Part shown: positions 24,233-41,522 of the stretch, piece by piece
Layout of the letters: each line of letters begins with the position of its first letter
Position numbering within the stretch: the first letter of the stretch is position 1
Origin: Thermoanaerobaculia bacterium
GTDB lineage: Bacteria > Acidobacteriota > Thermoanaerobaculia > Multivoradales > JAGPDF01
Assembly (NCBI GenBank): GCA_018057705.1
Contig: JAGPDF010000041.1
Location: 1-41,900, forward strand
Length of the DNA stretch: 41,900 nt
Direction of reading: 5' to 3'
The notes under the pieces: model-generated
What the model was told of the DNA's origin: nothing
The model's input: only the letters and a program-made list of their open reading frames with translations
Databases searched by the model: none
Position numbers and translations under genes: made by a program

Positions 24233-24424
24233 GGCACCCTCTGAGGGAACCGCGCGAGACGCTGCGTTTAGAACCTGAAACGCGTCAGGTGGGTGTCCTC
24301 ATGTGCGGCCTTCAGCGTCCCGGTCGGAGCCGGGCAGGCACGGGCCGCGCGGATATCGGACTCCCTGAGTAGCAATGTTGGTTCTACAGTGCGTCGGCTC
24401 GTCACGGTCCCCTCAGAGGATGCC
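24233..24424 (-). ncRNA. ssrS: 6S RNA
   Basis: 192 nt between zapA and rny, the classical 6S position next to zapA. The ends form a 15-bp closing stem (24410-24424 with 24233-24247) with a single G-U pair. Inside, on the transcribed strand, GGGAGTCC pairs with GGACACCC with one internal mismatch. GCGGCC pairs with GGCCGC, and CCCGG-N6-CCGGG caps the terminal arm. A small 3' hairpin, CCTGA-N6-TCAGG, sits where 6S RNAs carry one beside the central bubble. Total length is close to the usual 180-200 nt. Known role: mimics an open promoter and sequesters sigma-70 holoenzyme. Seen: structure and context; not tested by a covariance model. The adjacent ygfA gene of enterics is absent. Confidence 0.85.
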
Positions 24425-38074: not shown

Positions 38075-40288
38075 TCAGGCCTCCTCGCCGGCGGCCGGCT
38101 GGAAGGTGACGAAGTTGACGTTCATGCCGGTGCCGCCCATCAGCGGATCGACGGCATAGCGCGAGATCAGCTGCGCATCGGACGCTCCCCTGCCTGCCGT
38201 GCGCTTCAACCCCTTCGCGATATGTCCGAAACCGTGCACCATGTAGACGCAGTCGGTGCGGATGCGCTCGGTCGCCTTGACCTTGACCGGCAGCGACACG
38301 ACGCCGTCCTGGTTCACCAGCCGCACGGGCTTCCCGTTCTCGAGCCCCCAGCGGCGGGCGACGTCGGAATGGATCCAGACCTCGTTCTCCGGCATGGCCT
38401 CATGCAGCAGCGGATTCGTCTGGGTGCGGGAGAAGGTGTGGACCGGAGCGCGGCCGAAGAGCAGGCGGAAGTAGCCGGCCGGCGGCTCGGCGTGCGGGGT
38501 GTACTTCGGCACCGCGTCGAACCCCTTCTCGGCGAGCTGCGTCGACCAGAATTCGACCTTTCCCGAGGGCGTCGGGAACTCGAGAGCGTGGCCCTCTTCG
38601 ACGTTGATCGGGCGATGCGGCCCGACCACGACTCCCTTCTTCTTCATCTCCGCCAGCGTGAGTCCGGTGCCTGCGAGGCGCGCCTCGAGGTACTCCTCGA
38701 CGTTCGTCCACGGATAGAAAGCGCCGAGCCCGAGCTTTCCCGCCAGCTCGCGCGCGATCCACCAGTTCGGGCGCTGGTCGTCGGGGGCTTCCATGACCGG
38801 CTGGCGCAGCGAGACGAAAGGCTCGCGGAACGCCTCGGTGTTGAAATCGTCGTAGCGCTCGAGATAGACCGATTCGGGCAGAACGACGTCGGCCCAGCCA
38901 GCGATCTCCGACGGCACGACGTCGACGACCACCATGAGATCGAGCGCCTGGATGGCGCGGATCGTCTCCTCCTGGTTGGGCAGCGCCTGCAGCAGGTTCG
39001 TCGCGTAGACGAACCAGCCCTTGATCGGATAGGGCGCCCCGGAGATCGTCGCGGCGCGGATGCCGTTGGTCAGCCCGAGGTCCGCGAACGGGTACTTCGC
39101 ATCCGGATTGTCGACGGCGCCGCGCTCGCCGTGCGGGTAGGGGGGATAGGGGTACTTCGCAAGGGCGAACGAGGCCGGAAAGTAGAAGCCGCCCTCCCTG
39201 CCCCAGTTTCCGAGCAACGCGTTCACCAGGGCGATGGCCCGGCTGCGCTGCGCGTCGTCGCCGTACCAGGTGACATGCCGTCCGGGATGGAGCAACGTCG
39301 CCGGACGATGCCGCGCCATCTCGCGCGCGGTGGCGCGGATCGCCTCGGGCTCGATGGTGGTGATCGGGTAGGCCCACTCCGGCGTGTAGGCGGCGATCTC
39401 GGCCCGGAAGGCGTCGAAGCCGAAGCCATGGGTCTCGACGAACTCGCGGTCGTAGAGGTTCTCGGCGACCAGCACGTTCATCCAGGCGAGGAGCAGGGCG
39501 ATGTCGGTGCCCGGCTTGATCGGCAGGTAGTGCTTCGCCTTGCCCGCGGCCACCGAGAATCGGGGGTCCACGACGATCACCGTGGCGCCCGCGCCGATCG
39601 CCTCGGCGAACTCCTGCACCTGGCTGTTGTGCATGTTCTCGCCGAGATGGGAGCCGACGAGAACCAGGCAGCGGGCCTTCGAGATGTCGGTCCGTTCCGG
39701 GGTCGAAATCTCCTCGCCGAACGTCAACTGGAAGCCGACATCGCGCGGCCCGCGGCACTGGGCGTAGGAGGGCGCGACGAGATTCGGCGTTCCGAACGCC
39801 TTGAAGGTGTGCTTGAGAAAATTGCCGCCGATGCCGTGGCTGAAGAAGGCGAGCGCTTCCGGCCCGTGCTCGGCCTTGAGCTTCTGAAGCTTCTCGGCGA
39901 TGAACTCGAGCGCCTCGTCCCAGGTCACCTCGACCCAATCGTCCTCGCCGCGGTTCTTCTTGCGCAGGAGGGGCGAGCGCAGGCGGTCGGTGTCGTAGTA
40001 GGTCCCGACGCCGCCGGTGCCGCGCGGGCAGAGCCGGCCGCGCGAAAGCGGATCGGCCGGGTTACCCTCGATCTTCCACAGCCGGCCGTTCTTCTTGGTG
40101 GCGATCGCGCCGCATTTCCAGAAGCAGAGGTCGCAGTAGGTGGGGACTGTTTCGATGCGATCACCCGGTTGCGCGGGTCCGAAGAAGCCGGCCCAAGCCG
40201 GCGTCCCGGGGGTGAAGGCCGCTGCCGCGCCCGCCCCTGCGGCCCCGGCACCGATCTGCAGAAAACGTCGTCGCGAGAGGATCGTCAT
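38075..40288 (-). CDS. Molybdopterin oxidoreductase, PsrA/PhsA (CISM) family
   Basis: 737 residues. TAT signal SRRRFLQIG (residues 5-13) with a hydrophobic stretch to about 33. The [4Fe-4S] site is Cys52, Cys55, Cys59 and Cys87. Cys178, in SYAQCRGPRDVGF, sits where PsrA/PhsA-type enzymes place the Cys ligand of molybdenum. The C-terminal molybdopterin dinucleotide domain starts near residue 610 (FRLLFGRAPVHTFSRTQTNPLLHE). Candidate activities: polysulfide, thiosulfate or tetrathionate reductase, or the reverse. It could also be an arsenate- or selenate-type relative; the neighbouring YeeE and rhodanese genes favour sulfur. The start has no strong SD (GGAG 9 nt upstream). GTTTC/GAAAC repeats lie 22-50 nt before it. 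Confidence 0.93.
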   Translation of the reverse strand: MTILSRRRFLQIGAGAAGAGAAAAFTPGTPAWAGFFGPAQPGDRIETVPTYCDLCFWKCGAIATKKNGRLWKIEGNPADPLSRGRLCPRGTGGVGTYYDTDRLRSPLLRKKNRGEDDWVEVTWDEALEFIAEKLQKLKAEHGPEALAFFSHGIGGNFLKHTFKAFGTPNLVAPSYAQCRGPRDVGFQLTFGEEISTPERTDISKARCLVLVGSHLGENMHNSQVQEFAEAIGAGATVIVVDPRFSVAAGKAKHYLPIKPGTDIALLLAWMNVLVAENLYDREFVETHGFGFDAFRAEIAAYTPEWAYPITTIEPEAIRATAREMARHRPATLLHPGRHVTWYGDDAQRSRAIALVNALLGNWGREGGFYFPASFALAKYPYPPYPHGERGAVDNPDAKYPFADLGLTNGIRAATISGAPYPIKGWFVYATNLLQALPNQEETIRAIQALDLMVVVDVVPSEIAGWADVVLPESVYLERYDDFNTEAFREPFVSLRQPVMEAPDDQRPNWWIARELAGKLGLGAFYPWTNVEEYLEARLAGTGLTLAEMKKKGVVVGPHRPINVEEGHALEFPTPSGKVEFWSTQLAEKGFDAVPKYTPHAEPPAGYFRLLFGRAPVHTFSRTQTNPLLHEAMPENEVWIHSDVARRWGLENGKPVRLVNQDGVVSLPVKVKATERIRTDCVYMVHGFGHIAKGLKRTAGRGASDAQLISRYAVDPLMGGTGMNVNFVTFQPAAGEEA

Positions 40289-40309
40289 GGCATCGACTCC
40301 GTGACGAAT

Positions 40310-40338
40310 CGTTTCAAGCGCGAAACGACCATGAAACG
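40310..40338. promoter_or_regulatory. GTTTC/GAAAC repeats upstream of the molybdoenzyme operon
   Basis: CGTTTC-N6-GAAACG (40310-40327) followed by GAAACG (40333-40338). The half-sites match those in front of the dsrC-like operon but with different spacing. They lie only 22-50 nt before the ATG. No sigma-54 -24/-12 motif with correct spacing and good sequence was found between them and the gene, so they may act as an operator or serve an unseen promoter. Confidence 0.4.
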
Positions 40339-40384
40339 CCCCGGCGGAGGAGTCGCGCTCCCACCCTTCGGGGCGGGAAGAGGC

Positions 40385-40587
40385 TTAGCCTGACCTTCTC
40401 ACCGGCTTCGTCGCGAGGCGTGGCAGATGCCCGTGACGGCAAGGCGTCGCGACCGAGGCCCGCGCAGACGTACTTTCAGTACGTCGAGCAGGCGGGGTAC
40501 CCGTCCTGTGGACGGGTCGTGAGCGCAACGCAGCCGGCATGGGCAGATGCGGCGCCGCAGTAGAAGTCTGGTGAGAATGTCAGGCTA
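40385..40587. mobile_element. MITE-like element with 18-bp terminal inverted repeats
   Basis: The left end TAGCCTGACCTTCTCACC (40386-40403) is the inverse of 40570-40587 with 17 of 18 bases matching. GAGGC flanks both sides (40380-40384 and 40588-40592), a possible 5-bp target duplication. Inside are two perfect 8-bp hairpins with 3-nt loops: 40467-40485 and 40499-40517. There is no open reading frame that could encode a transposase. It fills almost the entire gap between the anti-sigma-like gene and the molybdoenzyme, and its right end supplies the stop codon of the anti-sigma-like gene. No second copy is in this window. Confidence 0.65.
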
Positions 40588-41010
40588 GAGGCCGGTCACC
40601 CGGAGCCGCCGCGAGACACGCCAGAAGGCGACCCACAGCAGGGAGGCAAGGACGAACGACACCGTCGCGGTCGCGGGCGCATCACGCAGGAGGAAAAACT
40701 GGATCCCGTTCTGGTTGCCTTGAACGGAGAACGGCAGAACGGTGGTGAAGATCGCGCAACCCATGAGCCAGGACCGGCGACGAAGGAGCCGGCGGGTGGC
40801 GTCGAGCGCCGACTTCCCGGCGCTCGGCGTCGGAAGAGTGGTGGGCCCACCGAATCGGGAGAGCTCCGGGTCGGAGGCGGCACGCGCCAGGCGCGCCAGG
40901 TCCGGGTTTGCGGCAAGGTGCTCCTCGACGAGCTTGCGCGTCGCCGGACTCGCCTCACCGGCGAGGTAGAGCGGCAGGAGGTCCTGGATCACGGCGGGAT
41001 CGAGGTTCAT
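40585..41010 (-). CDS. Anti-sigma-factor-like membrane protein
   Basis: 141 residues from ATG 41010, one base into the sigma factor stop (TGATG); GTG 41013 is an alternative. The N-terminal VIQDLLPLYLAGEASPATRKLVEEHLAANPDLARLARAA resembles the helical part of anti-sigma domains, with the usual HxxxCxxC zinc motif reduced to EEHLAANP (His kept, both Cys absent). Two hydrophobic helices follow (about 82-100 and 115-132). Position right after an ECF sigma gene supports an anti-sigma role by inference. The last codons lie inside the MITE-like element, so the C-terminus may have been altered by the insertion. Confidence 0.7.
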   Translation of the reverse strand: MNLDPAVIQDLLPLYLAGEASPATRKLVEEHLAANPDLARLARAASDPELSRFGGPTTLPTPSAGKSALDATRRLLRRRSWLMGCAIFTTVLPFSVQGNQNGIQFFLLRDAPATATVSFVLASLLWVAFWRVSRRLRVTGL

Positions 41011-41522
41011 CACGGGGTCTCCATTCTCGAGTCAACCTGGCGCGCCTCGGCGAGGCGAAGGCGCGCGCGATGGATCTTCACCTTCGTGGCGGAAAGACTG
41101 AGGCCGAGGGCGCGAGCGATCTCGTCGTACGGGAGCTGATCCTCGGCCCGCATGAGGAGCGCGGCGCGGTCGACCTCCGGCAGCTTCTGGAGCTCAGCAA
41201 GGACCCGGGAAAGCTCACTGCGCGCCGTGGCCCGGCGCTCGGGCGACACTTCCTCGGTGGCGAGCTCGAGCGAGCCCTCCGCGTCGAGGGGGAGGCCGGG
41301 GCGCGCGCGGTGACGGCGCATCTCGTGCAGGTGGAGGTTGCGCGCGATGGCGAGGAGATAGCCCCGGACGCTCGCGAGATCGAAGCGGTCCTGCGCTCCC
41401 CAGGCTCGGATGAAGGTCTCGGAGGTGATGTCGTCGGCGAGCGCCGGATCGCCCGAGAGAAACAGCGCGAAGCGCTGCACGTCGCGGGCATGTTCGGCGT
41501 AGAGCGTGGCGAAATCGAGCAT
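41010..41522 (-). CDS. ECF RNA polymerase sigma factor
   Basis: 170 residues. Region 2: LYAEHARDVQRFALFLSGDPALADDITSETFIRAW (about residues 7-41), with RGYLLAIARNLHLHEMRRHR following. Region 4: LQKLPEVDRAALLMRAEDQLPYDEIARALGLSLSATKVKIHRARLRL (about 112-158). Typical ECF length with no region 1 or 3. Directs RNA polymerase to a regulon that cannot be inferred here. The anti-sigma-like gene overlaps its end and a small membrane protein gene lies 3 nt upstream. Confidence 0.92.
   Translation of the reverse strand: MLDFATLYAEHARDVQRFALFLSGDPALADDITSETFIRAWGAQDRFDLASVRGYLLAIARNLHLHEMRRHRARPGLPLDAEGSLELATEEVSPERRATARSELSRVLAELQKLPEVDRAALLMRAEDQLPYDEIARALGLSLSATKVKIHRARLRLAEARQVDSRMETP

Follow-up and report, generated by a model that had tools for sequence, protein, structure and literature searches.

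A non-coding mobile element with a conserved fold at the stop codon of an anti-sigma-like gene, probably a MITE mobilized by an IS1380-type transposase

The window analyzed here, a 41,900-nt stretch of a Thermoanaerobaculia genome, carries a near-complete palindrome between two genes on the minus strand, an anti-sigma-like gene (40585–41013) and, downstream of it, a molybdoenzyme-like gene (38075–40288). What is this palindrome, how did it come to lie there, and does it serve these genes or only itself? The initial annotation had placed a MITE-like element at 40380–40592; an element does exist at this position, with limits that are close to these and are corrected here to 40386–40587 (202 nt), or to 40385–40588 when the terminal YTAR tetramers are included. 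Its parts are described on the plus strand, which is the family orientation. The terminal inverted repeats, TAGCCTGACCTTCTCACC on the left (40386–40403) and GGTGAGAATGTCAGGCTA on the right (40570–40587), are identical at 17 of 18 positions, as had been noticed at the outset and as sequence and pattern matches agree. The left terminal tetramer is TTAG (40385–40388), the distal copy of the duplicated target, and the right one is CTAG (40585–40588), whose TAG, read on the minus strand, terminates the anti-sigma-like gene. Between the tetramers lies the element proper (40389–40584), a near full-length imperfect palindrome. Both of the 8-bp hairpins with 3-nt loops reported earlier (40467–40485 and 40499–40517) were found; together with the repeats they had been taken to define a compact non-coding unit, but the repeats are the tips of an imperfect palindrome that runs across the whole unit. 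The apical hairpin, GACGTACT-TTC-AGTACGTC (40467–40485), is kept in the family as helix 5, with 94.1% of its cells paired. The second belongs to an extra hairpin insert of about 22 bp (ACCCGTCC/GGACGGGT; 40497–40518, limits approximate) that occurs in only some copies of the window's genus (6 of 33 alignment rows, all six from that genus). Terminal inverted repeats, short length and the absence of a transposase gene, by which MITEs are recognized, are all found in this unit, which is a real, non-coding mobile DNA element.

The state of the locus before insertion is seen in the sister genome G001, whose contig C207 holds an empty site with a single CTAG, within which lies the TAG stop of the anti-sigma gene. 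The empty site reads ...GGCCTCTAG, 7 nt, CCCGCCCCGAAGG, and the window, on its minus strand, reads ...GGCCTCTAG, element, CTAA, 7 nt, CCCGCCCCGAAGG. Since the single CTAG of G001 contains the stop, that CTAG was the insertion target, and the insertion rebuilt the stop codon and left the gene at its original length; both anti-sigma genes finish ...VTGL-stop (TAG) at the same codon. The 7 bases by the element's left end in the window also differ from the empty site, so that the exact left boundary rests on the family rule. It had been proposed that the right repeat holds the stop of the anti-sigma-like gene and that the insertion shortened this gene; the first part stands, because the minus-strand ORF at 40585–41013 ends on the terminal TAG, and the second is rejected, because the G001 ortholog ends at the same codon. 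The GAGGC copies said to flank the element are indeed present (40380–40384 and 40588–40592), but GAGGC was rejected as a target duplication: it does not recur beside other copies, and none of the 118 listed copies has identical 5-mers outside CTAG...CTAG, so that GAGGC in the window is incidental. The expectation that the empty site would show a single GAGGC next to a longer anti-sigma gene accordingly failed, the single target copy in G001 being CTAG and the ortholog having the same end. On the other side of the element, the gap to the start of the molybdoenzyme-like gene was lengthened by about 200 bp, from about 97 nt in the empty site to 296 nt. As to the possible effect on both genes raised in the initial annotation, neither a sigma-70-like promoter nor a terminator match was found within 40200–40700, and identity as a terminator was rejected for want of such a match.

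Other copies bear on the same target. Among the matches listed, YTAR flanks dominate (n = 118) and the terminal tetramers are CTAG at both ends in 98 of 118 copies, which, taken with the lack of matching outer 5-mers, identifies YTAR/CTAG rather than GAGGC as the meaningful flank. In the window's own genome (G000), the copy on contig C1 has a clean empty site, CTTGCTAGGATCC, in G001:C215, and comparison of the copy on C8 with G001:C368 shows CTAG kept on the aligned (left) side. The copy at G001:C70 corresponds in G003 and G007 to an empty site with CTAA, and the one at G001:C60 to a site in G000:C16 that reads CCTGAAGG, contains no YTAR and does not fit. The tally is therefore three empty sites with CTAG (window locus included), one with CTAA and one misfit; the comparisons for L002 and L006 gave no call. 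We propose that the element would insert into YTAR, usually CTAG, and duplicate that tetramer; as the stop TAG is part of CTAG, and each end of the unit brings a TAG with it, a stop codon at the target would be regenerated on insertion.

In keeping with the initial annotation, which had called the element MITE-like and pointed to its own genome and relatives as the places where further copies should lie, dispersed copies were found as well as empty sites. The window's genome carries seven strong dispersed copies at seven loci (BLAST), 75–84% identical to the window copy; matches occur in both of the two genomes of the genus; and among 98 relatives, 23 genomes have BLAST matches and 46 have matches to a covariance model built from 51 copies (its per-genome counts cover the best 27 candidates and may tally both strands of one palindrome). 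The exact end-pair pattern (two ends with 130–160 bp between them, allowed length 166–196) matched at least 119 stretches of genome_contigs, whose labels cover many phyla. Although the pattern allowed 166–196 bp, 107 of 120 listed copies measure 180–184 bp. The listed records come from about 50 assemblies (a hand count of contig prefixes), and their taxon names, which are the submitters' record titles, include Acidobacteriota, Delta- and Gammaproteobacteria, Myxococcales, Planctomycetota, Nitrospira, Gemmatimonadetes, Fermentibacteria, Eisenbacteria, Chlamydiae, candidate phyla and others. When the covariance model was applied to 54 of the listed loci, 48 scored at least 90 bits (one of the 54, L095, belonged to the training set). 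The other six (L098, L110, L115, L155, L186 and L202), which include the Chlamydiae record, reached 40–65 bits only; they seem to have their ends in common with the family and a different core, and may be distinct MITEs that a transposase of the same kind mobilizes.

In one 6.3-Mb MAG (G098), the end sequence gave 248 matches (about 124 copies) against 0 for a reversed control, and 20 sampled copies average 99.6% identity, with 14 of them identical, which points to a recent burst; the copies in the window's genome may be relics. At positions 1317–1421 of locus L242 (G108:C80) lies an element of 105 bp, far below the family length, whose CTAG ends are the same. A plasmid search with two element copies as query gave no match, and the CTAG-plus-end sequence matched 5 of 2.9 million viral contigs. 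In four of these viral records (L297, L299, L300 and L301) the distance between element end and contig end is about 105 bp, a pattern seen in many bacterial drafts too; these four may derive from chromosomes fragmented at the repeat. In the open-licence literature, no report of this element family was found.

The ends are not all that is conserved. The DNA fold of the unit has a z of -8.7, with 0 of 200 shuffles as good, and its RNA fold has a z of -8.7 on either strand, at -127.9 kcal/mol for the plus strand and -114.7 kcal/mol for the minus strand. Compensatory change is widespread, 42 of 57 predicted pairs being altered on both sides with pairing kept. Paired cells amount to 93.8%, against 77.0% in a shuffle control, which leaves the relatedness of rows in place, and at most 42% with slid partners, which also retain it; the corresponding covariation scores are 0.499, 0.190 and at most 0.092. 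In 87 rows (96 non-redundant rows minus 9 dropped by locus prefix for ambiguous, short or odd interiors), G-U outnumbers A-C on the family strand by 497 to 90, and the excess of G-T over A-C is found in the outer (53:8), middle (165:15) and apical (50:8) stems. Columns with more G-T than A-C number 39 against 3 of the opposite kind in a structure derived from the same alignment; when pairs were chosen by Watson-Crick pairing only, the counts were 206 G-T against 57 A-C and 44 columns against 7, and a structure optimized for the reverse strand still gave 345 against 243 on the family strand. Quasi-palindrome correction could alone keep the arms matched, but would give no preference for G-T over A-C on one strand. 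The excess on one strand suggests that the fold of one strand, as RNA or ssDNA, is under selection. At the Rfam gathering score, no family was found for the element in the window and 12 other loci, and a search of the element region to an E-value of 5 gave sub-threshold matches only. Elsewhere in the window, a 6S RNA gene (Rfam RF00013, 53 bits) lies on the minus strand at 24234–24422.

Under a simple ORF rule rather than a gene caller, 53 of 188 element ends coincide with the stop codon of an ORF that is at least 150 codons long, compared with 74 of 550 other CTAG sites at the same loci (odds ratio 2.5, p 1e-5), and targeting of CTAG explains how insertion at the end of a gene can leave that gene intact. 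Relative to the gene (at least 150 codons) that ends on it, the element points in the same direction in 25 cases and in the opposite direction in 27. This random orientation makes a service to the neighboring gene unlikely, and the fold would thus serve the element rather than its neighbors. When 882 ORFs from 151 loci were compared with one another by BLAST, the top cluster proved to overlap the element and was disregarded; no neighboring gene family recurred, and no transposase was recognized by eye in the remaining clusters.

We consider the element likely to be a MITE, a non-autonomous DNA transposon inserted into YTAR by a trans-acting transposase, putatively of the IS1380 type, and propose that its fold matters to the element itself. 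The transposase would act in trans by recognizing the element ends (CC[C/T]GNNNTTCTCACC), and the folded single strand, an ssDNA hairpin or RNA, would contribute to the element's own mobility or persistence. IS1380-type enzymes are the leading candidates because IS1380-family elements share parts of these ends and, in some cases, the flanking YTAR. Partial end likeness was seen to five IS1380-type elements, with YTAR at both ends in three of the five, the left and right tetramers not being identical. An intact IS1380-family element in G048 has the ends YTAR|CCTGCATTATTCATG and YTAR|CCTGGAAAATTCATA; the other four are plasmid-borne, namely an ISBdi2-like copy (TTAA|CCCGTC and CTAG|CCCGTC), a Microvirga copy (CTAG|CCGC and CTAA|CCCA), IS1380A, with CGCGGATTTCTCACA near its end and no YTAR made out in its flanks, and IS1247 (CCCACATTTCCCAAG; TTAA|CCCACATTTCCC, with TTAA at one end only). 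The likeness to the element thus comprises the outer end parts CC[C/T]G in some of them, CGGATTTCTCAC in IS1380A (shared with some element ends) and CCCACATTTCCC in IS1247, as well as the YTAR that flanks the copies from G048, Bradyrhizobium and Microvirga. Of the IS1380-type elements examined, only IS1380A has the inner end motif TTCTCAC in common with the element. Unlike these insertion sequences, the element has no transposase gene and measures only about 182–202 bp.

An autonomous element with the same ends is known for many MITEs and is not strictly required. Among the genomes and loci scanned, which are draft MAGs, no autonomous insertion sequence with exactly the element's ends was found. 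PF13701 (IS1380) is present in 5 of 16 genomes searched, all carriers, and gave no match in the window's genome. Unpaired or far-apart element ends in the 119 listed 8-kb loci and 14 further stretches enclosed no transposase recognized among the ORFs inspected; the widely spaced pairs either bracketed ordinary genes or proved to be MITE copies in a degenerate state. No consistent carrier pattern emerged for PF01609, PF01797 or PF13701 in the genomes chosen, and a viral search with an IS1380 protein returned one partial relative.

That no partner with the element's exact ends was found in the genomes and loci scanned, and that PF01609 transposases were detected in 7 of the 8 genomes searched, would also suit a MITE moved by another transposase family that duplicates a YTAR or CTAG tetramer, of which the IS5 type is one example and IS701 a further candidate. 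Such a mobilizer is unlikely, however, as no PF01609 locus is bounded by element-like ends (L252 and L259 merely adjoin one). For IS701, a target duplication of 4 bp and the end consensus ---YACT-Y--YR are described (PMC2266710); this consensus does not fit CCYGNNNTTCTCACC. A DDE transposase found by an element end in G108 was rejected as a partner, its own ends (CAATGCCGGTTAGTTA) being different. This DDE element, whose ends we take to be IS4-like, lies at positions 60–2020 of L252 (G108:C148) and directly abuts the GGGCTAG end of one element copy, on which it appears to have landed and which it may have used as a target.

The one-strand G-T bias would also accommodate a fold that is itself the working part, in which case an HUH (Y1) tyrosine transposase of the RAYT/TIRYT type would move the element as an ssDNA hairpin, as for REP, and cleave at CTAG. 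The high-copy MAG G098 has 13 Y1_Tnp genes and the window's genome 11, and Acidobacteria TIRYT genes with flanking long inverted repeats are described in one study (PMC3733652). This mode of transposition is nevertheless improbable: G108, G110 and G040, all rich in copies, gave 0 Y1_Tnp matches, the Y1 loci scanned lack element ends save for three degenerate end-like matches (L277, L281 and L286), and a duplicated YTAR better fits a DDE transposase. Nor did any of the loci scanned hold a Y1 tyrosine transposase gene with the repeat on its flanks, the mark of REP/RAYT or TIRYT membership. A cis-regulatory or structured RNA serving neighboring genes, whether terminator, attenuator or 3' UTR stabilizer, would draw on the strong fold, the position between the end of one gene and the start of the next and the excess of element ends acting as stops, but is very unlikely given the random orientation, the absence of a terminator-like site in 40200–40700, the occurrence of almost identical copies at unrelated positions within a single MAG and the lack of any recurrent neighboring gene family. 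The element is probably an IS1380-mobilized MITE with an unusually conserved fold.

Among described repeats, the TIRYT/TIRtron families are inverted repeats of Acidobacteria and other bacteria linked to RAYT-like tyrosine transposases (PMC3733652), and the element resembles them as an inverted-repeat family occurring in Acidobacteria. It differs in that no tyrosine transposase was found linked to its copies in the loci scanned, none being detected in some carriers, and the GGGGWSAS motif described for them (PMC3733652) is absent from its ends. The TIRYT repeats of Acidobacteria are a fair alternative identity, but one against which this lack of a linked gene speaks. Taken as a whole, the copies might tentatively be read as one mobile family, distributed across many bacterial phyla, in which selection acts on the folded single strand (RNA or ssDNA) as well as on the ends. 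It would then be a transposable structured nucleic acid whose own mobility or persistence requires the 182-nt fold and whose CTAG ends are harmless at stop codons. Bacterial MITEs are usually described one species at a time, and one fold at one length kept by compensatory changes across phylum labels would make the dependence of a MITE on its folded strand testable, while ends of the CTAG kind give a transposon a simple means of entering dense genomes with genes left uncut. The palindromic repeats of the ERIC, REP and Correia type and other bacterial MITEs are short, non-coding, intergenic, palindromic over nearly their full length, dispersed and flanked by a short duplicated target, and the element has all of these traits in common with them; what sets it apart from known MITEs and REP-like repeats is one fold and one length across many phylum labels, with compensatory changes and a one-strand bias, and CTAG ends that regenerate stop codons.
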